A stretch of DNA of 64,000 nt from NCBI GenBank assembly GCA_026390695.1, contig JAPLFL010000123.1, positions 1-64,000 on the forward strand. The letters run 5' to 3'. Position numbers and translations under genes: made by a program. This document shows positions 10,978-24,980 of this stretch, piece after piece; within the stretch, counting starts at the first letter, position 1, and every line of letters starts with the position of its first letter. The stretch comes from Candidatus Kapaibacterium sp. (GTDB lineage Bacteria > Bacteroidota > Ignavibacteria > Kapaibacteriales > UBA2268). Below the pieces are notes generated by a model that had not been told where the DNA came from, ran no database searches, and was given only the letters and a program-made list of their open reading frames with translations.

Positions 10978-13269
10978 TCAAAAAGCATTTCCTATACCCA
11001 ATTGGAAATGGATAGTTTTAAATTCATTCTCCCGCTGCCATAAGAACTGAGGCTTTGACACAGGATCGTAAATAGGCCATGCAAAATCAAACCTAACTGT
11101 TAAAAAGCCGAGATCAAGCCTTAGCCCTACTCCTCCGGCAATAGCAAGTTTTGTAATGTAATCAAGCGATTTAACTTGAGTTTCTTTATCGGCGTACCAA
11201 CCAAAAGTATTTCCAATATCGATAAATTCCTCGAAACCAGCCATAGAGACTAAATCTGCATAAGCACCATTCAAATAATCAGGACGATTAAATTTTTGCC
11301 GTAATTCAACAGACGTTTCAATAAGTTTTGAAGAGCCTACAAAATCACGGGCAAATTGATAGGAAAAACCATCATTAATAGGAAGTTTTGTATATCTGAG
11401 TTCACGCGGCCCCCATGCTCTGACGCTATTTGAACCACCTGCAAAAAGTTGTCTTTCCTGAGGTATATACGTACTGTCAGATTTGGTTAAATATCCGATT
11501 TTAAATTTAAAAGCTAAAACGCTGTTTTCAAAAATATTCTGATTATCCGAGAATGTAAAAATAGTTCTGAAATACTTTGAAATTCCTGAGATGCGGGAAT
11601 TCACCATGTACAAACTTGGAAACAGTGAATGAAAAGGTGTAACTTCCAGATTTAGCGAAAAATAATATCCTTTTTTGGGTGAATTTAAATTATCACGATG
11701 ATCAGAAATTAATGTTAAACCCATGATTGCCGAAGTTATGAATGGTGATTTCTTTGAGTTTACAAAAGTATTCAGAACTCTGTAAATTTCATAATTCTGT
11801 TTAACTTTTGCTTTATCATCAAGGGATGTTACTTTGCTCAGAGCAGAATCCTGTGATTGGTAAAAATGTTCCGGTTCTTCCCTGCTGAGACTTAAATCTA
11901 AATTTACGTTGTTTATAAAATTAAATGGTTGAAATGACGCAGTAAGCTGCAATGGTAAATATAATCCCCAAACTCTCAAATAATTATCGAATGGTTTATA
12001 TGAGATAAGTGGATTAGCATATCCGCCGATCCTCATCCCATTCAAATTTTTTATCAAAGGTTGACCGAATTTGAATCCTGCCTGACCGGTAAAACCAGCT
12101 GCATCCAATCCTTTGCCTATTTCCAAAGGTTTTTCAACATCAGCACGTATGAACGGATTTATCATTTGTACCTTACCACCAAGATTTTTATGCATGTACT
12201 CTAATTCAATACCATAATGGTCCTGTTTATCTATTTTAGTAGTATTAGCAAAAAAACCCAAATTCCAGCTCTGAAGCTTGCGATACTGGCAAAAGACAAT
12301 CATCGACAATGTTGAATCAGTAATTTTATTGAAAATTGAACTTGTGTCAATTTGTACAACATCGAATACGCCGAATAGTCTTAGATTTTCTTCTGAAAGT
12401 TTAACATTTCTTCGGGAATACCAGTCTCCTTTTTTAAAAAATAATTGATCAAAATGGGTATTATAAGAAATAGGGTTCTGGCCTCTGGTGCTATCAATCA
12501 GGTTGATAGCGGCTATTTTTTGTCTTTTTCCGGTAACAAATCTAATTGTTAAACTATCCTGATAATTTACTGTATCTTTTGAAACACTTGGCGTTGAATA
12601 CAAACGAGCATAATAAAAACCATTATCTTTCAGAACATCTAAAATTGAACTTATCTGCGATAGAATTGAATTTTCATTCAAAAATTCAAATTTATCATTA
12701 TCAATAATTCTTGCAATTTCAATTGATAGTTCATTGGGAATTGAGTCCAGTCCTATATATTTGATTGGTTTGAGTTGAAATCTTTTACCTTCTTTTATTT
12801 TTACAATCAGAAAATTTAATCGTTTTAATGGATCGGATTTAAAAAAATAACTTATAAAAGCATCGTGAAATCCATTTATATTATAAAATTCTTTTAAAGA
12901 AATCATATCTTGTTCAATTTTAGTTTCTTCAATAAATTTTATTTCGTCCTGACGTGCCTTTAAACCACTATCCAGAGCTATCAAAGCCAGTTGAGGGGTT
13001 GCTTTGATTTTAGAAAATTCTTTTCTAAATCTTCTTAGGATATAATGAGAAAAACTCTTTGAATTCGGTCTTGAGCTAAGTAATTCAATTAATTCCGAAG
13101 AAGAAAAACTATTATTTCCTTCAAACAGAACTTCTGATAATTCAAATTGGAGAGAATCCGATTCAGATGGAATTAATGAGGCTTTTCCGTAATTTTGTCC
13201 TAATAATGGAATAGAAAAATAAACACTAAAAAAGCAGATTAAAATTATTTTATAAGTGGAATATATCAA
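10978..13269 (-). CDS. BamA/TamA family outer-membrane protein
   Basis: A 763-residue Omp85-type protein with signal peptide (MIYSTYKIILICFFSVYFSIPLLGQ). Residues ~40-330 resemble POTRA repeats (LSEVLFEGNNSFSSSELIEL; NGFYYARLYSTPSV). Residues ~340-763 form the beta-barrel surface-antigen domain, with the conserved GGSNSVRAWGPREL motif equivalent to the substrate-exit VRGF/Y loop, an LGLRLDLGFLTVRFDFAWP-like strand and a terminal aromatic F. Family role is insertion or translocation of outer-membrane proteins. The divergent loop sequence and lack of bam neighbours suggest a TamA-like accessory paralogue rather than the essential BamA, but this is inference. Confidence 0.85.
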   Translation of the reverse strand: MIYSTYKIILICFFSVYFSIPLLGQNYGKASLIPSESDSLQFELSEVLFEGNNSFSSSELIELLSSRPNSKSFSHYILRRFRKEFSKIKATPQLALIALDSGLKARQDEIKFIEETKIEQDMISLKEFYNINGFHDAFISYFFKSDPLKRLNFLIVKIKEGKRFQLKPIKYIGLDSIPNELSIEIARIIDNDKFEFLNENSILSQISSILDVLKDNGFYYARLYSTPSVSKDTVNYQDSLTIRFVTGKRQKIAAINLIDSTRGQNPISYNTHFDQLFFKKGDWYSRRNVKLSEENLRLFGVFDVVQIDTSSIFNKITDSTLSMIVFCQYRKLQSWNLGFFANTTKIDKQDHYGIELEYMHKNLGGKVQMINPFIRADVEKPLEIGKGLDAAGFTGQAGFKFGQPLIKNLNGMRIGGYANPLISYKPFDNYLRVWGLYLPLQLTASFQPFNFINNVNLDLSLSREEPEHFYQSQDSALSKVTSLDDKAKVKQNYEIYRVLNTFVNSKKSPFITSAIMGLTLISDHRDNLNSPKKGYYFSLNLEVTPFHSLFPSLYMVNSRISGISKYFRTIFTFSDNQNIFENSVLAFKFKIGYLTKSDSTYIPQERQLFAGGSNSVRAWGPRELRYTKLPINDGFSYQFARDFVGSSKLIETSVELRQKFNRPDYLNGAYADLVSMAGFEEFIDIGNTFGWYADKETQVKSLDYITKLAIAGGVGLRLDLGFLTVRFDFAWPIYDPVSKPQFLWQRENEFKTIHFQLGIGNAF

Positions 13270-13341: not shown

Positions 13342-13368
13342 ACAAAAAACGGGCATAGAAGCCCGTTT
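13342..13368 (-). terminator. Rho-independent terminator of the DUF2795 gene
   Basis: An 8-bp stem (AAACGGGC at 13347-13354 with GCCCGTTT at 13361-13368) and a 6-base loop. On the minus strand the stem is followed by a T-rich tract. It lies 24 bases past the stop of the DUF2795 gene. Confidence 0.8.
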
Positions 13369-13802: not shown

Positions 13803-16763
13803 TTATTCAATGATAATTTCATCAATAAATATGATAGTCATTTCCCCTTTACCTGCGTGCCAGTCAGGAATTTTTCCTCTATTTCTGGCTATCAGCTTTA
13901 TATATCGACATTTTTCAGAAATTTTTAACTTAAAATCTTTTATCTGTTTCGTAAGATCTTTCTCAGAAATTTCATTTTTTATTGTACCGACCTTTTTAAA
14001 CTCAATCTTATCTTGTGAAATATAAAATTCAATTTCAACCGGCATCCATATCCAAGCATCCACATCTTGCAAAAATCCTGCTGCCACACTTATTACCTGA
14101 CGATTTTCACTTAAATCAACAATTGCTTCAAAATCACAGTTTTGAAAACCTTGCCAATGCCCTAATCTAAAGTTCTTATCACCACGAATACCATCGATCA
14201 ATCCATCATCTCCGCCACCAGTATATTGTTTTAAATATTTTGTTTTATAATCAACATTAAAAATATTTGAAATCTTATAATATTTTGAACTTATTGATTC
14301 ACTCTTGCCATTTTCAGTGAAAGAAGCTGCTTTTAATGTCACTGAACTATCTATTGCAAACGGCTCTTTATACAAATATGACATCTCTGTTGGTTCGCTG
14401 CCATCGCATGTATAGCGGATTTGTGAATCAGGATTTTTCTGATAACTAATTAGCAATGATTTACGGAAGACCTGTTTATCAGGACTTATTGTAGGTGCAT
14501 TTATTATCTTATAATCTGAAATTTCATTTATCGGGAAATTTCCTTCTCCTGTCCCCCAGCTACTATTTGGATTTTTCCCCATTTCAAATATGAGCTCTCC
14601 CCCATTGATAATTACATCGTGATTAATAAAACTTTTAGCATACGTTTTTCCATTAAGTATTACGGATTGAATATAATAGTTGCTGTCAGAGAGATTATTC
14701 GCCTTTATAATAAAGTTCTTTCCGTTCTCAAGATTAATTTTTAATTTACTAAATAATGGCGTACCTATAGTATAGTCCTTATTTCCGGGACACACAGGGT
14801 AAAATCCCATTGAACTTAATACATACCAGGCAGACATTTGACCGCAATCTTCATTTCCAATCAAACCATCAGGACTGTTTTTATAAAAATCATATTGAAT
14901 CTGATGAATTCTTTTTTGTGTAAGCCACGGTTTTGAGCAAAAATTATATAAGTAAGCTATTTGATGGCTTGGCTCATTTCCATGCGCGTATTGACCTATT
15001 AAACCTGTAATATCTGCCTGTTCTCGACCACTAAGCTTGGATTCAGTCTCAAATAATTCATTCAGCTTCGCAGAAAATTTTTCTTTTCCACCATTCATCT
15101 TGATAAATGTTGAAATATCCTGAGGAACATAAAAATTATATTGCCAGCAATTGGCTTCAGTATAATTGTTATCAACCTGTGTCGGATCAAATGGTGTCAG
15201 AAATCCACCATTAAAGCGTGGACGGATAAATTCTGATTCCTTATCAAAAAGATTTTTATAAGATTGGGCTCTTTGTATGAATCTCTTATAATCATCAGTT
15301 CTTGAGAGTGAGAGAGCCATTTGAGCAATACACCAATCATTGTATGCATATTCCAAAGTTTTGGAAACTGACTCAGACTCTGCTTCTGATGATAGAAATA
15401 AATTCTTTTTGTAAAAATCAAGACCGAAAAGATTAGTGTCAGCACTATGTTTAATAGCTTTATAAGCCAATTCAACATCAAAATTATTGATTCCTTTTAT
15501 ATAGGCATCAGTAATAACTGACACACTATGATAACCAATCATACAAAATGTTTCATTTGATGATAGTTCCCAAACCGGCAGCAGTCCTGCTTGTTCATAT
15601 TGTTTGAGAAATGTGTTGATAAAATCATTTGTTCTCTTTTGTTGAATAATCGAGTAGAGTGGATGAGTTGCGCGATAAGTGTCCCAAAGCGAAAAAACAG
15701 TGTAGTAATCAAAATAATCTGTTTTATGGATTTTATTGTCACGGCCACGGTAGCGCCCGTCCACATCGGAATAAATATTGGGGACAACAAATGTGTGATA
15801 CAGTGCAGTGTAGAAGGTTATTTTCTTATCAGCATCAATGGATTCCACTTCAATACGACTAAGTTCGCGGTTCCAGTCTAAGTTCCCATTTTCAACAATT
15901 TCATCAAATGTTAAATGCAAAGATTCTTCTTCCAGATTTTTTATTGCGCCAAGCTCATCCACAGCGGATATTCCGACACGAACTTCAAGAGTTTTAATTG
16001 CATTAAAATCAAATATAAACTTTAAATCTTTTCCATTGACTGATTGATCCCCCCTTTTTAAGACAAGATCATTGCTCTTACTTGTACTCAATTGATTTGT
16101 CGATTCTTTTGGAATATTTTTATTATAGAATGATTCCGAGAACCTTTTGGAAAATTTAATGGCAAAGAATACTCTCTGATCCTTTGCCCATGCCTTAGAA
16201 TATCTGTAACCGGTGAGCATGGTATCCCCGATTATTTGAATTTTCGAATCTATTACGTCATCTCTGTGTTTTAGGTCAATTAGTATCCTTGGTCTTGAAT
16301 TATTTGGAAAAGTGTAACGATGATTACCCGTTCTTTTGGTTGCGGACAGTTCGGCTTTAATTTTATATTTTTCTAAAAATGTGGAATAATAGCTTGGACT
16401 GGCAATCTCATTCTTTTTAGAAAATATAGACGAATATTTTTCATTATCAAATTCAAAATTATCTTTAATATCTGCTAACATCGGCATTATCAGTATATCT
16501 CCATAATCTGAGCAGCCTGTGCCACTCAAATGGGTATGTGAAAAACCAAAGACTACCGTATCCGAATCATGATAAGCCGAGCAGCCGTCCCAACCGGTCA
16601 ATCTGGTGTCAGGGCTTAGTTGAACCATACCGAATGGCACAGTAGCGCCAGGATAAGTATGGCCATGTCCACCAGTTCCAATAAATGGATTAACATATTT
16701 TGTCAGATCCTCGCAATTGAGGCGCTGACTAAGCAGCAGTAGCGATATAATCAGGATTTTCAT
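13803..16763 (-). CDS. GH92 family alpha-mannosidase, secreted
   Basis: A 986-residue glycoside hydrolase family 92 enzyme. These are Ca-dependent exo-alpha-mannosidases that remove mannose with inversion. A signal peptide (MKILIISLLLLSQRLNC) leads into the hallmark VNPFIGTGGHGHTYPGATVPFG and SPDTRLTGWDGCSAYH. The catalytic region contains GNEPSHQIAYLY (family general acid Glu) and GNEDCGQMSAWYV (family general base Asp). After the catalytic part (~20-745) there is a chitobiase C-terminal-like module (~760-830, YTCDGSEPT) and an F5/8-type-C-like carbohydrate-binding module (~840-985). The gene begins 3 bases after a TMTC-like membrane protein gene, so it is almost certainly cotranscribed with it. 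The context suggests mannose trimming on the periplasmic or extracellular side. Confidence 0.92.
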   Translation of the reverse strand: MKILIISLLLLSQRLNCEDLTKYVNPFIGTGGHGHTYPGATVPFGMVQLSPDTRLTGWDGCSAYHDSDTVVFGFSHTHLSGTGCSDYGDILIMPMLADIKDNFEFDNEKYSSIFSKKNEIASPSYYSTFLEKYKIKAELSATKRTGNHRYTFPNNSRPRILIDLKHRDDVIDSKIQIIGDTMLTGYRYSKAWAKDQRVFFAIKFSKRFSESFYNKNIPKESTNQLSTSKSNDLVLKRGDQSVNGKDLKFIFDFNAIKTLEVRVGISAVDELGAIKNLEEESLHLTFDEIVENGNLDWNRELSRIEVESIDADKKITFYTALYHTFVVPNIYSDVDGRYRGRDNKIHKTDYFDYYTVFSLWDTYRATHPLYSIIQQKRTNDFINTFLKQYEQAGLLPVWELSSNETFCMIGYHSVSVITDAYIKGINNFDVELAYKAIKHSADTNLFGLDFYKKNLFLSSEAESESVSKTLEYAYNDWCIAQMALSLSRTDDYKRFIQRAQSYKNLFDKESEFIRPRFNGGFLTPFDPTQVDNNYTEANCWQYNFYVPQDISTFIKMNGGKEKFSAKLNELFETESKLSGREQADITGLIGQYAHGNEPSHQIAYLYNFCSKPWLTQKRIHQIQYDFYKNSPDGLIGNEDCGQMSAWYVLSSMGFYPVCPGNKDYTIGTPLFSKLKINLENGKNFIIKANNLSDSNYYIQSVILNGKTYAKSFINHDVIINGGELIFEMGKNPNSSWGTGEGNFPINEISDYKIINAPTISPDKQVFRKSLLISYQKNPDSQIRYTCDGSEPTEMSYLYKEPFAIDSSVTLKAASFTENGKSESISSKYYKISNIFNVDYKTKYLKQYTGGGDDGLIDGIRGDKNFRLGHWQGFQNCDFEAIVDLSENRQVISVAAGFLQDVDAWIWMPVEIEFYISQDKIEFKKVGTIKNEISEKDLTKQIKDFKLKISEKCRYIKLIARNRGKIPDWHAGKGEMTIIFIDEIIIE

Positions 16764-16766
16764 GAG

Positions 16767-18641
16767 TTATTTCATCCCATGATCCATTAACCATTTGGAA
16801 CATACTTTATCCCCTAAAATGGCATAAGCTCTGATTGTATCGACTGATGACCGATCAAGCACATCTTTATCATATTTTGCAAAGGCTATATTTCTTTTAG
16901 TTGCTAAATCGTTTGGCTTTAATTCGAGTGATTTTGTAAATGCAGCTATTGCTTTTGAATAATCTTTATTATTTACATAACAAATTCCAAGAGTATTCCA
17001 TGATTTGAAATTCTTAGAATCTAATTTGACAATTTCCTGATATGTGGTGATTGCATAATCATACTGCTTCATATAAATAAATACAGCTCCAATAGAATAC
17101 CATACATCAAGATCATTCGGAGCCAAATCAGCAGCTTTTTTCAGCATTGCTAAACCTTCGAATATCTTATTCTTTTTGAAATATAATTTCCCAAGATTCA
17201 CATAAGAAGGCTCAAATTCAGGTGCTGCAGTAACTCCATCTTCCAGCACACGAATTGCTTTGTCATATTCAGCCCTTTTAATTAAAATATTAGATAGATT
17301 TGCAACTGCTTCACCATAATTTGGATGAATTTTGATAGCTTCTTCTAATAATTTTACAGCTTCTTCTGGTTTCCCTCGATCAAGGTAAAAGTTGGATAAA
17401 CAGAAATTTGAAAATGAATTGTCATGATTCTCGGCTGCTTTTGAATAAAATGAGATATTATCCCGATAAGTATTTATGTAAATAGTAGTATTGATGGCAT
17501 TATAAATTATTAAAGCTATAATCAAAACGCTCACTCCTGCTACAATTTTTTTGGTTAGATTTTCAGATTCTATAAAAGATTGAAAAATAATCAAAATTCC
17601 AATGAAAGGCAGATATGCGCGATGATTTAAATAATCGAATCCGAAATCGGCATAAACAGATCTGAAAAAAAGAGTCGGAATCATAAATAAAACAAGCCAT
17701 AATATTCCGAATAACGGATACTTTTTGTCTTTACTCGTAATGATTAGGTAAGCTATTATCAAGATCAATAGTGTTCCAAATAGTATTGGGAGCCATGATG
17801 AGGAGTTTATTATCGGAAGTGGATTTACAGCCGACGGATCAAGGAAGAATATCCCAAGCTGATGAGGCAGGCCTATTATATTTTTAAGAAAATATGAAAA
17901 CCATTCTTTATTTAAAAAACTACCTTTTATTACCGAAGATCTCAAAAATAAATAAAATATTGAAATTATAGCATTAATTCCAGTAACCAAAATAATTTTC
18001 TTTATGTGCTTTCTGAATCCAAATATTATTGACAACATCGGCGCAATCAGAATTCCTGCCAAGGCTGTTTCTTTAGAAAAAACAGCTAATAGAAAAGAAC
18101 AAGAGCCTACTATTAGAAAAAATAATTTTTCTTTTTGGAAGTATCTTATAGTCGAAATAGTATAAATTAATATAAATAATGTAACTAAAAGATCTCCACG
18201 CGCTGGAATCCAGGCTACCGCATTAGAAATAACTGAATTGATACTGTAAAAAATTGTTAGTAATATAGCAGCTAATGGATTTATCCCTAAAGCATCAAGA
18301 AACATTAAAATAAGAACTACCGATAGAATGTGTAGTATTAAATTACATAAATGATAAACAGTTGCCTGATCTTTCCCTAATTGATAATCAAGAATAAAAC
18401 TGATTGTCTGCAAAGGTCTATAGAATGAATTTCCTTTTGTACTTCCAAATGCATCAACTGAAAAAGCTTTACCTATATTTGAAACCTTAGCATAAAAATT
18501 GGAATTATTTTTTATCATATCAGAATCATCAAAACCAGAAAAATCGAAGAAGATAATTCGTCCGAATAATGATAAGTTAATAAGAATCAAAAGTATAATC
18601 CCATTTCTCTTATTAGTAATAAAATCAATAGCTTTTTGCAT
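16767..18641 (-). CDS. TMTC-like GT-C membrane protein with TPR repeats (paralogue 1)
   Basis: A 624-residue polytopic protein with about ten hydrophobic segments in residues ~10-390 and about five to six TPR repeats in ~400-600 (for example PNYGEAVANLSNILIKRAEY). The layout and motifs resemble eukaryotic TMTC1-4, which are protein O-mannosyltransferases. There is an acidic pair in the first outer loop (SGFDDSDMI), then SFYRPLQTISFILDY, then HLCNLILH and AWIPARGDLL. The expected reaction would be transfer of a sugar from a polyprenyl-phosphate donor to exported protein, but this has not been shown for bacterial members. It starts 10 bases after paralogue 2 and ends 3 bases before the GH92 mannosidase gene. 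Confidence 0.75.
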   Translation of the reverse strand: MQKAIDFITNKRNGIILLILINLSLFGRIIFFDFSGFDDSDMIKNNSNFYAKVSNIGKAFSVDAFGSTKGNSFYRPLQTISFILDYQLGKDQATVYHLCNLILHILSVVLILMFLDALGINPLAAILLTIFYSINSVISNAVAWIPARGDLLVTLFILIYTISTIRYFQKEKLFFLIVGSCSFLLAVFSKETALAGILIAPMLSIIFGFRKHIKKIILVTGINAIISIFYLFLRSSVIKGSFLNKEWFSYFLKNIIGLPHQLGIFFLDPSAVNPLPIINSSSWLPILFGTLLILIIAYLIITSKDKKYPLFGILWLVLFMIPTLFFRSVYADFGFDYLNHRAYLPFIGILIIFQSFIESENLTKKIVAGVSVLIIALIIYNAINTTIYINTYRDNISFYSKAAENHDNSFSNFCLSNFYLDRGKPEEAVKLLEEAIKIHPNYGEAVANLSNILIKRAEYDKAIRVLEDGVTAAPEFEPSYVNLGKLYFKKNKIFEGLAMLKKAADLAPNDLDVWYSIGAVFIYMKQYDYAITTYQEIVKLDSKNFKSWNTLGICYVNNKDYSKAIAAFTKSLELKPNDLATKRNIAFAKYDKDVLDRSSVDTIRAYAILGDKVCSKWLMDHGMK

Positions 18642-18651
18642 TTATTTACCT

Positions 18652-20097
18652 TTATTTATAATTACTTTTTATCATTTCCGATTCAGCTTTTATCAGAGAA
18701 TCTACTTTGAACAATATTCTCGTTTTTCTGTTTGAGTCTGAAATTTTATTACATATATAGACGCATTTACTAATTAGTTCATCATTTTCCGGTTCAAATT
18801 CAATCAATTTTTCGTATAAATCCAAAGATTTATTAAATTTATTGACAGAGAAATAATAATCAGCTAATTTCCTGTTTATAGAAATTGAATTTGGATTATG
18901 ATGAAGTGATTTTAAAAAATAAGTCTCAGGATTTGAGTAAGTATTAACATTGCTGAAACTACCAATCATTCCAAGAATAAGTCCGAAAATCAATCCATAT
19001 TTATTCTTATTTAGCCATGGTTCTGCTTTTTCGAGAAAAACACTGACTATTAATATCCCAAATAATGGGAAATATGTTAATGACTCAAAATAATCAATTC
19101 CATCATTTTTCTTTAAAGTAATAAAAAATGGTAATAATCCTAAAAAAAGTATAATTATTCCGAACGAAATAAATTGAATCTCAGCCTTATCTCGGTTCCG
19201 CCACAGTAAGAATAAAAATAATACAAATATCAAACAACCTATTGAAATTATTAATGTATCGAAAACAGGCATTGGCGAGAGAGCAAATGGAAAATAAACT
19301 TTAAGAAACATTTCCGGAAAAATCCTGATCTTGTCAAAAATATAAGCATTTTTGAAATGGAAAACAGCAGAATAATGAATATCCAAATATCTATTAATAA
19401 AATAAAAAATGAAATAGTTAGCAACTGTGGAAATGCAAAAAGGTAATGACTTTTTAATTTGCTTTTTATTTATTAAAATTATATATGAAAGCAAAACAAG
19501 CGGAATAACAATACCAGTATCATTTGATAAAAAAGCAAAAATTTGAAAAATCATTGAGCTGATCCAATAAATCAAGTTTCGGGATTTAAGATAATAAATC
19601 AGGAAAACAAAAGCAATAATAAAGAATAATCCCAATAAAAGCTCGGCTCGTGCCGGAATCCAAGCAATAGAGTTAGTCATAAGTGGATGGGAAGCAGCTA
19701 TAGCAGCCCATATAAGAGCCTTGAATCGACTAATTTCCCAAAGTTTTAATATATGTAAAATAAAACATACTGATAAGGCATGAATTAAAACATTAGTTAA
19801 ATGAAATATAAATGGCTGATAAGGAGCTAAGATTTTATTTAAACTAAAACTCAGACTTGTCCCAATACGAAATTCTTCTGTTCCCTTACCGCCAAGCAAT
19901 GAACCAATACCCAATTCATTAATATATTTACCAGACTCATTATAAACAATAGAACTATCACCAAAAAAAGATAATCCAAAATTGACTGTGATGCCCCAGA
20001 TTACAAAAACAAATAGGAATATACCAAGATAATCTCTGAAGCTAATTTCTTTGGAATCAAAAATGTCTATTTTATTTAGTAAATTTTTTCTATTCAT
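18652..20097 (-). CDS. TMTC-like GT-C membrane protein (paralogue 2, divergent motifs)
   Basis: A 481-residue polytopic protein, clearly paralogous to the next gene: similar first loop, FHLTNVLIH matching HLCNLILH, AWIPARAELL matching AWIPARGDLL, and about ten membrane segments. It differs in the places expected to matter. The acidic pair of the first loop reads FGDSSIV instead of FDDSD, and the YRPL stretch reads EEFRIGTSLSF. The TPR part is reduced to roughly two repeats (~385-460). It may be a non-catalytic partner or have a changed specificity. It is the first gene of the operon that runs into paralogue 1 and GH92. Confidence 0.7.
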   Translation of the reverse strand: MNRKNLLNKIDIFDSKEISFRDYLGIFLFVFVIWGITVNFGLSFFGDSSIVYNESGKYINELGIGSLLGGKGTEEFRIGTSLSFSLNKILAPYQPFIFHLTNVLIHALSVCFILHILKLWEISRFKALIWAAIAASHPLMTNSIAWIPARAELLLGLFFIIAFVFLIYYLKSRNLIYWISSMIFQIFAFLSNDTGIVIPLVLLSYIILINKKQIKKSLPFCISTVANYFIFYFINRYLDIHYSAVFHFKNAYIFDKIRIFPEMFLKVYFPFALSPMPVFDTLIISIGCLIFVLFLFLLWRNRDKAEIQFISFGIIILFLGLLPFFITLKKNDGIDYFESLTYFPLFGILIVSVFLEKAEPWLNKNKYGLIFGLILGMIGSFSNVNTYSNPETYFLKSLHHNPNSISINRKLADYYFSVNKFNKSLDLYEKLIEFEPENDELISKCVYICNKISDSNRKTRILFKVDSLIKAESEMIKSNYK

Positions 20098-20305: not shown

Positions 20306-20343
20306 AAAAAAAAATCATCCGATGATTATTTTTCATCGGATGA
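20306..20343 (-). terminator. Rho-independent terminator of the 937-residue choice-of-anchor V gene
   Basis: An 11-bp perfect stem (20315-20325 / 20333-20343, TCATCCGATGA type) is followed on the minus strand by nine T. It lies 77 bases past the stop codon at 20420. Confidence 0.85.
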
Positions 20344-20419: not shown

Positions 20420-23233
20420 CTATTTTACAATTGAAATTTTCTCAATTGCTTTTTTGTCACCAATATAACAAACTGCATGATACAAACCGATTGGAAGCAA
20501 TTTTCCATTCTGATTTCTTAGGTTAAATTCCAGTTTTTCATTAGCATTTACATTTAATTCAGCGACGGTTAGTCCGAAAATATCTATAATTTTAATATCA
20601 ATCGGAAATTCCTTCAACGATTCAAATCTTAGAAAATCGCTTGCAGGAGTCGGATAGACTTTGAAAACTTCACCGATAATATTTTGGTCATTAACTGAAC
20701 TTGTTACTTGGCCTGACAGATTAATGTTTGTGATAATACCTGTTTCAGCACAAGTAATTTTTAATACCGCACTTGCATTTACAACTGATTTTGCAAGAAA
20801 AGTTACATCGAAAGGTGTGGATTTTCCTCCATCAATAACAGTTCCTTGAGCAAGACTGGTTGTAAATTCTGCTTTATCGGTACCTTCAATAGTATAATTC
20901 AAAGTTGCTTTCAAATTCCCATTATTGGCAATGGAACTGGATTTTGTTACTGATTTATTTAATGTTGTAGTCTTTAGAACAAATTGTTTATCATTAAATA
21001 CAAGATCAATTGAGCCTCCCATACCGGATATTAGCAATGAAGGATTAGTTACGGAGTTGCTAACGAAATCAAGTTTTGCGTTTTTTGTACCGAAAGCATT
21101 AGGTTTGAAGCCAATATTAATATCTTTGGTCTCATTTGTTTTCAAAGTAAAAGGAGTAGCAGGACCAATCAGTTTGAATTGAGCAAAGTCCGCGCCATTC
21201 ACGTTAATTGCAGTTACAGTCAAATCCTTTAATCCAGTATTGGAAATATATGCTTTTAATACAGTATCTATTTCCACTCCAATAGGTGTAGTAGGAAAAT
21301 TGAATGAAGACTGAGCCAAGGTCAGAACCGGATTATTAGTACCGCTTATTTGCAGACTGGCAGCATTACTTGTGACCGATCCACAATTATTTGTTACCAC
21401 ACAGTCATAATTACCAGCATCATTTGTTGTTGCATTAGTAATCTGCAGTGAAGCGGCATTTTTGCCTGTAATACCAGTTCCGTCTTTTCTCCATTGGTAA
21501 GTCAAATTCGCACCGCCAGCGGTGACAGAGAAATTTGCAGTGCCACCAAGACTAACTGTCTGATTAGAAGGTTGAGTGGAAATTGATGGTTTAGCAATGA
21601 TTGTAACTTGAACGGATTTGCTTAGAACTTGATTACCACAGGCATCTTTAATAGTAACCTGATAAGAACCGGCATCAGTTTTAGCTATTGTTGTAAAATT
21701 AATTTTATTTGTCGATTGACCGCTTATAACAGCAGCATCTTTAGTCCATATATATGTTAAACCGTCACCTGATGCTGTAACAGATAAACTTGCTGCGGTT
21801 CCTTCACAAGCATCTATAGCTACTAAATCGGTTGATATAAAAACATTCTGAAATATTGACAAAGCTGCAGCCTGGCTAACTGCTGGAGGAGTGCAGTCAC
21901 CACTTACTATGCAAGAATAATTTCCAACATCCAGGGTATTAACACTGCTAATTTGAAATGTCGCAGAATTTGCAGCCCCATTGATATCAAGTCCATTTTT
22001 TTGCCATTTATAAGAAAGATTCGTTCCTAAGCCATCAACAAAGAAAATAGCTTTTGTACCGATACAAGTTTGAATTGGTAAAGGTTGTTTTATGACAGAA
22101 GGAGTCACTTTAACTGTTAATATTGCCGCATTACTTGTTGCAGAGCCGCATGTACCCGTTACCAAACAATCATAAGAACCTGCATCTGAAGCAGCAACCG
22201 AAGAAATCGGATAAGAACTTGATGTTGCACCATTAATATTGGTGCCACCTTTTCGCCACTGATAAGTTAAATTAGAGCCATTTGCTACAACTGAGAATGA
22301 AGTTGGCTGGCCTGTGCAACCTGCTGCTGCTACTGGTTGTGTACCTATTGCCGTAACGGCATTGATTGTAAAATTAGCAGCACTTGTAGCGGTTATCGAT
22401 GAATTTGCTTCATCTGTAATTTTAATTTTGTATTGATTTCCTGCAGTCTGACCACTTGGTATATTCCAGCTATAACTTCCTGCTGAAGAACTTACTCCTG
22501 TTGCAATAGTTGTTGGGAAACTTGATCCACCATCACTCGAAAGTTCAATTTTACAAGTATTAGAGCCGGACGCAGTCCATGTTATATTTTGGGTTGATCC
22601 CTGGCACCATGCCTCACCGCCATTAGGTGCATTGATAGTAATCGAACCGCCGGCACTAACCGTTAACGTGGTTACCGCAAGCCAATTGTATAAATCGTTA
22701 GCATCCTCAGATCCATTACCATTAGTCCCTATTCCTATAGCTCTCAGGTAATAAGTACCGGCTGCCGGAGGAGCTGTCCACGTAAATCTGAATGTAACAG
22801 ATCCACCTGTCATGGTTTTTCCGGGTGAAGTATGAGTTAACTCCCCTGTAGTTAAATACGATTGGATACCTTCACCAGATATAGGAGCTAATGTACCTGC
22901 GTTAGTTGATCCTGTTGTTGTTGTTTTTACCGCAATATCCACACCAGCCTTGATTTTACCAGCAGATGATACAGTTAATGTAAATGTTAAAACTCCATTT
23001 GGGGTTGTAGAAAATTGTCCGTTATCACTGGCAATACTCAAACTGGTAGCCGAATTTGAATTATTCCCGTGACAGGTTTGGCCGCAACCTTGAGAAGTAT
23101 TAGATGTCAAACCAGTCTTAGAGCCATTTTGCTTTGCAATTATTTGTTGTGATCCAAGAACAAAAATAGCTAAGATAATAAAAACGGAGTAAATATTCTT
23201 GTATAGGTTTGATATGTAATCTAATAATTTCAT
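20420..23233 (-). CDS. Secreted choice-of-anchor V protein with Ig-like domains and T9SS sorting domain
   Basis: A 937-residue exported protein. After the signal peptide, residues ~35-195 form a Reeler-like choice-of-anchor V domain starting NGSKTGLTSNTSQGCGQTCH. This contains a CX3CH motif (CGQTCH) where the family typically has CxxCH. Residues ~200-290 resemble a Kre9/KNH-like Ig domain (NGGEAWCQGSTQNITW). About four Ig-like domains follow (~295-632; each with YxW/YxC signatures such as LTYQWRKGG and AGSYDCLVT). One or two choice-of-anchor D/ASH domains (~640-850) and a T9SS type A sorting domain (~860-937) complete it. It is probably a surface adhesin or structural protein. Its ends closely match the 383-residue protein encoded upstream, so the two arose by duplication. 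Confidence 0.85.
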   Translation of the reverse strand: MKLLDYISNLYKNIYSVFIILAIFVLGSQQIIAKQNGSKTGLTSNTSQGCGQTCHGNNSNSATSLSIASDNGQFSTTPNGVLTFTLTVSSAGKIKAGVDIAVKTTTTGSTNAGTLAPISGEGIQSYLTTGELTHTSPGKTMTGGSVTFRFTWTAPPAAGTYYLRAIGIGTNGNGSEDANDLYNWLAVTTLTVSAGGSITINAPNGGEAWCQGSTQNITWTASGSNTCKIELSSDGGSSFPTTIATGVSSSAGSYSWNIPSGQTAGNQYKIKITDEANSSITATSAANFTINAVTAIGTQPVAAAGCTGQPTSFSVVANGSNLTYQWRKGGTNINGATSSSYPISSVAASDAGSYDCLVTGTCGSATSNAAILTVKVTPSVIKQPLPIQTCIGTKAIFFVDGLGTNLSYKWQKNGLDINGAANSATFQISSVNTLDVGNYSCIVSGDCTPPAVSQAAALSIFQNVFISTDLVAIDACEGTAASLSVTASGDGLTYIWTKDAAVISGQSTNKINFTTIAKTDAGSYQVTIKDACGNQVLSKSVQVTIIAKPSISTQPSNQTVSLGGTANFSVTAGGANLTYQWRKDGTGITGKNAASLQITNATTNDAGNYDCVVTNNCGSVTSNAASLQISGTNNPVLTLAQSSFNFPTTPIGVEIDTVLKAYISNTGLKDLTVTAINVNGADFAQFKLIGPATPFTLKTNETKDINIGFKPNAFGTKNAKLDFVSNSVTNPSLLISGMGGSIDLVFNDKQFVLKTTTLNKSVTKSSSIANNGNLKATLNYTIEGTDKAEFTTSLAQGTVIDGGKSTPFDVTFLAKSVVNASAVLKITCAETGIITNINLSGQVTSSVNDQNIIGEVFKVYPTPASDFLRFESLKEFPIDIKIIDIFGLTVAELNVNANEKLEFNLRNQNGKLLPIGLYHAVCYIGDKKAIEKISIVK

Positions 23234-23828: not shown

Positions 23829-24980
23829 TTATTTTACAATTGTAATTTTCTGTAACGATTTTTTGTCATCATAATATGTAATAGCATAATAAATACCCGC
23901 TGGAAGCGATTTCCCTGATAGATCACATAAATTCCATTCAAGTTTCTCACCAGGCTTTAATTCAATTTCTGTTACAGTCAAGCCAAAAATATCCATTATT
24001 TTCAAATAAATATTAGAACCTGTCAATGACTCAAAGCTGATAGCCTCAGTTGCAGGATTCGGAAAAGTCCTAAAATTTTCACTACTGATAACTTGATCAA
24101 ATACCGAACTTGGTTTAGTAATCGAAAAATTTGCAGCGCTTGTAGCAAATGTGGCTATATTTGATTCATCAGTAATTTTAATTTTATATTGAGCACCAGT
24201 TACTAATCCTGAAGGAATAGTCCAATTATATAAACCCAATGCGGCATTTACAGTCGATGCAATAATAGTCGGATATGTCGAACCACCATCGGATGAAAGT
24301 TCAATTTTACAAGTAGAAACTCCGGAAGAAGTCCAGCTAATACCATGAATTGAGCCCTGATCCCATAGCTCACCACCTTTTGGTGATGTAACAGCAATTG
24401 ATCCTGCTGAAGTTACTGTTAATGTTGTAACCGAAAGCCAGTTCCATAAATCTCCTGAATCTTCAGAATTATTCCCATTGGTAGCATTTCCAATAGCTCT
24501 GAGATAATAGGTACCTGCAGTAGCAGGAGCAGTCCAAGAAAATCTGAATATTACAGATCCATTTGTCATAGTCTTAGGGCTTGTATGTGTAAGTTCTCCA
24601 GATTTTAGTTGAAGCCCCTGTCCTGTCTCTTGAGCAAGAGTTCCTATGTTTGTTGCACCAGTTGTGGTTGTTTTAACTGCTATATCACAACCGGCAGTTA
24701 CTTTTCCCGGACAGTCAATTGTTAATGTAAAGATCAAAACGCTGTTTGTTGATGTAGTAAACTGCCCGTTATCACTTGTAATGGACACTTTAACAGATGA
24801 ACTTGCACTATTAGCATGGCAACCCTGCCCACAACCTTGTGAAGTATTTGATGTAAGTCCTGTTTTAGTTCCATTTTTATTTGCTGACGCTGAATTGGCA
24901 ATTAGAAAAAACACTATAATAATCAGTGAACTGACTATCAGTCTTTGTTTAGCATTAGTTAAAGTATAGAAAATATTCAT
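23829..24980 (-). CDS. Secreted choice-of-anchor V protein with T9SS sorting domain (short paralogue)
   Basis: A 383-residue exported protein. The signal peptide ends near NSASA. The choice-of-anchor V domain (~30-195) opens NGTKTGLTSNTSQGCGQGCH and again has a CX3CH motif (CGQGCH). A Kre9-like Ig domain follows (~200-290, KGGELWDQGSIHGISW), then a T9SS type A sorting domain (~305-383, FRTFPNPATEAISFESL). It is the 937-residue neighbour without the central Ig and ASH domains, so one copy gained or lost that block. The function is unknown; surface attachment is likely. Confidence 0.85.
   Translation of the reverse strand: MNIFYTLTNAKQRLIVSSLIIIVFFLIANSASANKNGTKTGLTSNTSQGCGQGCHANSASSSVKVSITSDNGQFTTSTNSVLIFTLTIDCPGKVTAGCDIAVKTTTTGATNIGTLAQETGQGLQLKSGELTHTSPKTMTNGSVIFRFSWTAPATAGTYYLRAIGNATNGNNSEDSGDLWNWLSVTTLTVTSAGSIAVTSPKGGELWDQGSIHGISWTSSGVSTCKIELSSDGGSTYPTIIASTVNAALGLYNWTIPSGLVTGAQYKIKITDESNIATFATSAANFSITKPSSVFDQVISSENFRTFPNPATEAISFESLTGSNIYLKIMDIFGLTVTEIELKPGEKLEWNLCDLSGKSLPAGIYYAITYYDDKKSLQKITIVK

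Follow-up and report, generated by a model that had tools for sequence, protein, structure and literature searches.

The locus described here raises the question of why a bacterium should encode, side by side on one strand, two polytopic membrane proteins resembling the animal TMTC enzymes, which are O-mannosyltransferases (PMC7801869, PMC11292533), and an exo-α-mannosidase of family GH92. It lies in a 64,000-nucleotide stretch of Candidatus Kapaibacterium sp. (assembly GCA_026390695.1, contig JAPLFL010000123.1, positions 1 to 64,000), referred to below as the window. The original prediction for these genes was a candidate transferase-plus-hydrolase system, in which TMTC-type transferases would put mannose on exported proteins, perhaps the T9SS-type surface proteins of the window, and the mannosidase would trim it. 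On balance, our analysis favors another arrangement, in which a presumably active TMTC-like enzyme (A624), a probably non-catalytic paralog (B481) and a GH92 enzyme that joined them in this lineage share one transcription unit.

The three minus-strand open reading frames were reproduced as originally predicted, with the same coordinates and spacing. In the direction of transcription, B481 (18652..20097) is followed after a gap of 10 bp by A624 (16767..18641), and after a further 3 bp by the GH92 gene (13803..16763). Terminator-like hairpins were found on the minus strand on either side of this group, one with a run of nine T residues at 20315..20343, which is 5′ of the operon and after the gene at 20420-23233, and one at 13347..13368, between the GH92 gene and the next gene at 10978-13269. 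Because the gaps are short and hairpins are present on both sides, a single transcript spanning B481, A624 and GH92 is likely, and the three genes would then form one transcription unit.

With respect to the membrane proteins, neither A624 nor B481 gave a Pfam glycosyltransferase match above cut-off, and the PMT sequence models gave no above-cut-off match for A624, B481 or C687, a third TMTC-like protein of the window considered further below. When the TMTC-like alignment was used as a profile against the PDB, again no match was returned at E values up to 10, and structure prediction was therefore needed. AlphaFold models, whose input alignments consisted of relatives in named genomes, were of good quality, with a pLDDT of 90.6 and a pTM of 0.86 for A624 and corresponding values of 85.0 and 0.87 for B481. 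Plain Foldseek matches of A624 were mostly proteins with tetratricopeptide repeats (TPRs), and it was structural alignment that revealed the likeness to GT-C enzymes. Specifically, the A624 model aligned to the yeast oligosaccharyltransferase (STT3; 8age) with a Z score of 22.2, to Pmt4 (9i5l) with 21.4, to the Pmt1–Pmt2 complex (6p25 chain B) with 20.9 and to ArnT (5f15) with 20.6, at rmsd values of ~4–4.6 Å across ~340 residues. The B481 model aligned to Pmt4 (9i5l) with a Z score of 21.8. A GT-C core, which the original prediction had put forward for checking by structure prediction, is thus seen in the models of both proteins, with best Z scores of ~22.

Comparison of A624 with the animal TMTCs was made by published motifs and topology, namely the seven motifs and 11 transmembrane (TM) helices described by Eisenhaber et al. 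2021, who had already noted full-length prokaryotic homologs (PMC7801869). Model helices, hydrophobicity and charge distribution predict 11 TM helices for A624, with the N terminus inside and the TPRs outside; there are about six TPRs, at about residues 400–592 (16866..17444, minus strand), which are predicted to be periplasmic. The GT-C fold, the 11 helices and the outer C-terminal TPRs are features shared with animal TMTC1–4 (GT105), and the DD, YRP, RxD and KE motifs as well as the loop-5 Arg and Tyr sit in matching loops. On the minus strand, M1 (FDDS, 18522..18533) and M2 (FYRP, 18414..18425) fall in the first periplasmic loop, M3 (ARGD within AWIPARGD, 18192..18203) in the second, M4 (SKET, 18066..18077) in the third and an M7-like motif (NHRAYLP, 17607..17627) in the fifth. 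M1–M4 are carried by C687 as well, and in neither protein is the SHKS of SHKSYRP retained. At M7, where the consensus is ERxxY, A624 reads NHRAY, such that Arg and Tyr are kept, Glu is replaced by His and the spacing is one residue shorter. All nine core positions of the family are kept in A624, and Pro322 is located in TM9 of the model. This architecture is the same as that of the known prokaryotic TMTC-like GT-C and TPR proteins (PMC7801869), from which the present operon differs by the addition of a degenerate paralog and GH92, an arrangement that was not found in the literature searched. The PMT/POMT enzymes (GT39) share the GT-C fold, with Z scores of ~21 to Pmt4 and Pmt1–Pmt2, but A624 has C-terminal TPRs, no MIR match in Pfam and no PMT family match. 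Taken together, the modeled fold, the predicted 11-TM topology and the placement of the motifs support A624 as a homolog of the TMTC/GT-C enzymes.

In the mechanism that we propose, A624 would be an inner-membrane TMTC-like GT-C enzyme with its N terminus in the cytoplasm, and its 11 TM helices would shape a periplasmic-side pocket that accommodates a polyprenyl-phosphate-linked monosaccharide. An Asp of the first-loop DD motif would act in catalysis, while the lipid phosphate would be bound by the third-loop K-E pair and the fifth-loop Arg. The periplasmic TPR solenoid would bring in an acceptor, with an exported protein as the most plausible candidate, and a hexose, possibly mannose, would be moved to it from polyprenyl phosphate on the periplasmic side. 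Judged from its fold and motifs and from the donor-synthase evidence given below, A624 probably does transfer hexose from polyprenyl phosphate. B481 would be a fast-evolving duplicate, related to another paralog of the same genome, that keeps the fold and has lost donor-binding and catalytic residues; it may serve A624 as a non-catalytic partner or scaffold, or it may be a decaying copy. GH92 would be a normal exo-α-mannosidase whose entry into the unit is confined to this lineage; its substrates may be the same mannosides or ones from outside. Contact between B481 and A624, the activity of A624, its donor, its acceptor and mannose as the sugar are all points that we infer.

In terms of the third gene, the protein encoded at 13803-16763 is unequivocally a GH92 exo-α-mannosidase, as originally proposed. 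It matches GH92 models with a Pfam E value of 3.1e-177 and 691 bits for NCBIfam TIGR01180, and its GH92N (PF17678) and catalytic (PF07971) domains are both far beyond cut-off. A short N-terminal signal-like sequence precedes these two domains, and the protein is probably exported. Following the catalytic domain are an Fn3_assoc/CHB_HEX_C domain and a C-terminal region in common with a solved β-hexosaminidase. The catalytic-acid motif YTEANCWQ (Glu536; 15141..15164, Glu codon 15156-15158, minus strand) was located by alignment to 6f8z, whose TEGNAWQ aligns with TEANCWQ, and the catalytic-acid Glu is kept (residue roles from PMC5930347). The 580-loop of the +1 subsite reads AHGNEPSH, the same as in 6f8z (BT3130 by construct sequence), and lacks the His-Glu pair that gives BT3990 its α-1,2 specificity, which makes this specificity less likely for the window enzyme. 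Similarity to the Bacteroides GH92 enzymes BT3130, BT3965 and BT3990 is full-length, with the catalytic acid conserved; the extra C-terminal domains set the window protein apart from them.

The association of this enzyme with the TMTC-like genes was found not to be conserved in relatives. GH92 is present in 6 of 54 genomes of the same family and 136 of 391 of the same class, and most family genomes with TMTC-like genes have no GH92. A TMTC-like profile was run over 65 stretches around GH92, which represent 64 distinct loci (one contig appears twice) and derive nearly all from genomes that also carry TMTC-like genes. Only one of these 64 other loci (L125) has a TMTC-like gene within ~8 kb, although some of the contigs are short and linkage is possibly underestimated. 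Even there the arrangement is not operonic, as the TMTC-like gene is four genes from GH92 and the genes between lie on the opposite strand. Conversely, the DNA flanking 29 named TMTC-like loci, a few of which extend the search beyond the class to other groups, contained no GH92. The closest GH92 relatives, 56–59% identical, lie in unrelated gene contexts. Because the two genes are unlinked in relatives, a conserved add-and-trim TMTC–GH92 system is not supported within the class, and the tie of GH92 to A624 is lineage-specific at most.

These observations leave considerable room, somewhat short of an even chance in our judgment, for GH92 to be a nutrient-acquisition enzyme that came to lie downstream of the GT-C genes by chance, which is compatible with the arrangement that we favor. 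Bacteroides GH92 enzymes break down mannans and N-glycans (PMC5930347), the accessory C-terminal region of the window enzyme matches that of a β-hexosaminidase and the distribution of GH92 in relatives is sporadic. On the other hand, GH92 and A624 are separated by only 3 bp, and no further mannan-degrading enzyme was present among the ten window proteins around GH92 that were annotated.

B481, the first gene of the operon, encodes a TMTC-like GT-C protein with 11 TM helices that differs markedly from its neighbor. The original prediction had ascribed TMTC motifs and TPRs to both proteins, which holds for A624 (DD, YRP, AWIPARGD, KET, HRAY; about six TPRs), whereas B481 keeps AWIPAR but lacks most motifs of the animal TMTCs, and no more than one or two TPRs, weak ones, can be made out in it (best E 0.016). 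Six of its nine core positions are lost (D38G, P76I, D150E, K190N, E191D and R341L in A624 numbering), such that it reads GD for DD, FRI for YRP, RAE for RxD and ND for KE. In the first-loop motif FGDS (19954..19965), the first catalytic Asp of the relatives, which have DD or DE, has become Gly; in SNDT (19516..19527), SKET in the family, the K-E of the phosphate/metal site has become N-D; and in ESLTYFP (19066..19086), EHRAYLP in the family, the phosphate-binding loop-5 Arg has become Leu (all minus strand). The D-to-E and E-to-D changes are conservative, unlike the replacement of the first Asp, the lysine and the loop-5 arginine. A PMT_2 match is sub-threshold, at 18.8 bits against a cut-off of 26.1. 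The sister of B481 is a paralog in the same genome (C110:110813-112414; tree support 1.0), which retains 9 of 9 core residues, and the branch leading to B481 is 2.2 times as long (1.03 vs 0.47). No other member among the 55 sequences examined exceeds three core substitutions, and those with three (L094, L097 and L105) form a clade of their own with shared substitutions, which looks like a subfamily. B481 is probably non-catalytic, this being the best reading of six lost core residues, a sister that keeps all nine, a longer branch and the lack of any similar member, and the claim of two active transferases is not sustained.

As to what such a protein might do, it is tentatively possible that B481 is a functional non-catalytic subunit paired with A624 in the manner of the PMT heterodimers, an idea that is compatible with the other readings. 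B481 stands first in the unit, its model is well folded and its TM and loop scaffold is retained although the donor residues are lost; PMT enzymes, moreover, act as dimers (PMC12705809). Nevertheless, the longer branch agrees with relaxed constraint, and no tandem-pair or array member among the 55 sequences is equally degenerate, so that the B481–A624 pairing is not a recurring design. As a recurring feature of tandem pairs, a degenerate partner was rejected on the basis of these 55 sequences.

Several points weigh against an active A624, a non-catalytic B481 and a lineage-specific GH92 as the full account of this unit. Other GT-C enzymes with this fold attach sugars to lipid A, polysaccharides or lipid carriers. 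DUF1736 (PF08409), which holds the metal-binding DW of motif M5 in animal TMTCs, gave no match in A624, B481 or C687 at a maximum E value of 10, and the best PF08409 match in the whole genome, on another contig, reached only E 2.15. Since this segment is absent, donor or acceptor chemistry may differ from that of the animal enzymes. The open frame and good fold model of B481 argue against simple decay, and the 3-bp gap between A624 and GH92 points to translational coupling, possibly the sign of a genuine link specific to the lineage.

The wider family also bears on donor and acceptor. Relatives of the TMTC-like proteins were detected in 187 of the 391 genomes sampled from the class, and the named ones belong to metagenome-assembled genomes (MAGs) labelled Kapabacteria, Ignavibacteria and Bacteroidetes. 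The present genome has five clear TMTC-like genes, three of them inside the window, and one partial match. The third gene of the window, overlooked by the original prediction, is C687 (26960..29023, minus strand), a GT-C and TPR paralog outside the operon with CDD, YRP, GRND, TKEI and EHRAYLP intact, whose clade includes relatives in family genomes (L072, L075 and L096) that are ~39–43% identical over the membrane part. Tandem arrangements are common: pairs were found at L062, L064 and L065, and larger arrays comprise at least five (L083), seven (L079) or nine (L097) members. In an Ignavibacteriaceae MAG (L079:578-18425), seven head-to-tail TMTC-like genes are led by a GT2 gene with a 10-bp overlap and followed by a gene whose 945-aa product has an N terminus resembling a signal sequence. 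The lead GT2 resembles AglJ and polyprenyl-phosphate-sugar synthases, and a GT2 56% identical to it is present in our genome on another contig (C52). This genome also has GMD, and GDP-mannose is therefore probably made. In a Bacteroidetes MAG (L097:1-17713), nine TMTC-like genes are consecutive, and some of them belong to a divergent subfamily that has H/P/Y at three core positions.

It seems rather unlikely that a GT-C protein of this kind places its hexose on a polysaccharide of the envelope, on lipid A or on some other lipid-linked glycan instead of protein, in an ArnT-like or three-component-like fashion. ArnT is among the closest solved folds of A624, and synthases of the type resembled by the L079 GT2 are used in several such pathways; the C-terminal TPR solenoid, however, is absent from ArnT, which acts on lipid A, and suggests protein recognition, as has been proposed for the solenoid of TMTCs (PMC11292533), while arrays of seven to nine diverged paralogs would be better suited to a variety of acceptors than to a single polymer. 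The TPRs and the expansion into arrays make protein the favored acceptor. Least convincing is the protein O-mannosylation and trimming system first proposed, in which A624, with or without B481, would add mannose to exported surface proteins and GH92 would remove it: the tight co-directional spacing of the genes, the conserved GH92 catalytic acid, the GDP-mannose route and polyprenyl-phosphate-hexose-synthase-like GT2 of the genome and the activity of animal TMTCs speak for it, but it is improbable in view of a degenerate B481, the absence of GH92 from most family genomes with TMTC-like genes, the unrelated contexts of the nearest GH92 relatives and the lack of linkage at 63 of 64 other GH92 loci and at all 29 named TMTC-like loci.

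Further observations concern the surroundings of TMTC-like genes and their relation to the animal enzymes. At L083:526-15792, secreted DNA/RNA non-specific endonucleases are interspersed with TMTC-like genes and could be matched substrates; these nucleases and a SprB-repeat type IX secretion system (T9SS) protein in L078 are striking single cases. Secreted proteins were not significantly enriched directly 5′ of TMTC-like genes (12 of 31 vs 60 of 222 in the background; Fisher p = 0.20, with a crude signal-peptide caller). In the window, the adjacent genes at 20420-23233 and 23829-24980 each encode choice-of-anchor V domains together with a weak T9SS sorting tail, and the former also has Ig-like domains, a fold class modified by animal TMTCs. 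The protein at L125:3253-5157 represents another TMTC-like type, with HTEVVANIKSRD and DRMLYTPS, that is apparently closer to the animal TMTC motifs. Two TMEM260-like (PF11028) genes, of a family related to animal O-mannosyltransferases, are also present in this genome (L116, G000:C81:46288-46809; L117, G000:C43:3994-4533), and a PF11028 match was obtained in a Bacteroides control genome as well.

With GH92 not a conserved part, the operon itself matters less than the wider family. A 2025 review of Bacteroidota protein O-glycosylation lists the oligosaccharyltransferase, the ligase and the core-glycan flippase as undiscovered and advises seeking homologs of eukaryotic O-mannosylation enzymes (PMC12871550). 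Animal TMTCs have themselves only recently been recognized as O-mannosyltransferases, and we found no paper on the function of bacterial TMTC relatives in the literature searched. A bolder proposal, to which we give little credence at present, is that bacterial TMTC-like proteins are a large dedicated family of protein glycosyltransferases, with arrays of up to nine paralogs, each dedicated to specific exported proteins, and a polyprenyl-phosphate-hexose synthase as their supplier, represented here by an active enzyme, a non-catalytic partner and a co-expressed mannosidase; if true, its members would be candidates for the missing steps of Bacteroidota protein O-glycosylation. Given their patchy distribution, TMTC-like enzymes are unlikely to be the universal Bacteroidota oligosaccharyltransferase. 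The array family, with one array led by a polyprenyl-phosphate-hexose-synthase-like gene, is nonetheless the more interesting and useful lead, and TMTC-like enzymes, which roughly half of the genomes sampled from the class encode, in arrays and in one case beside a donor-synthase-like gene, can be tested as candidates for related O-glycosylation steps.

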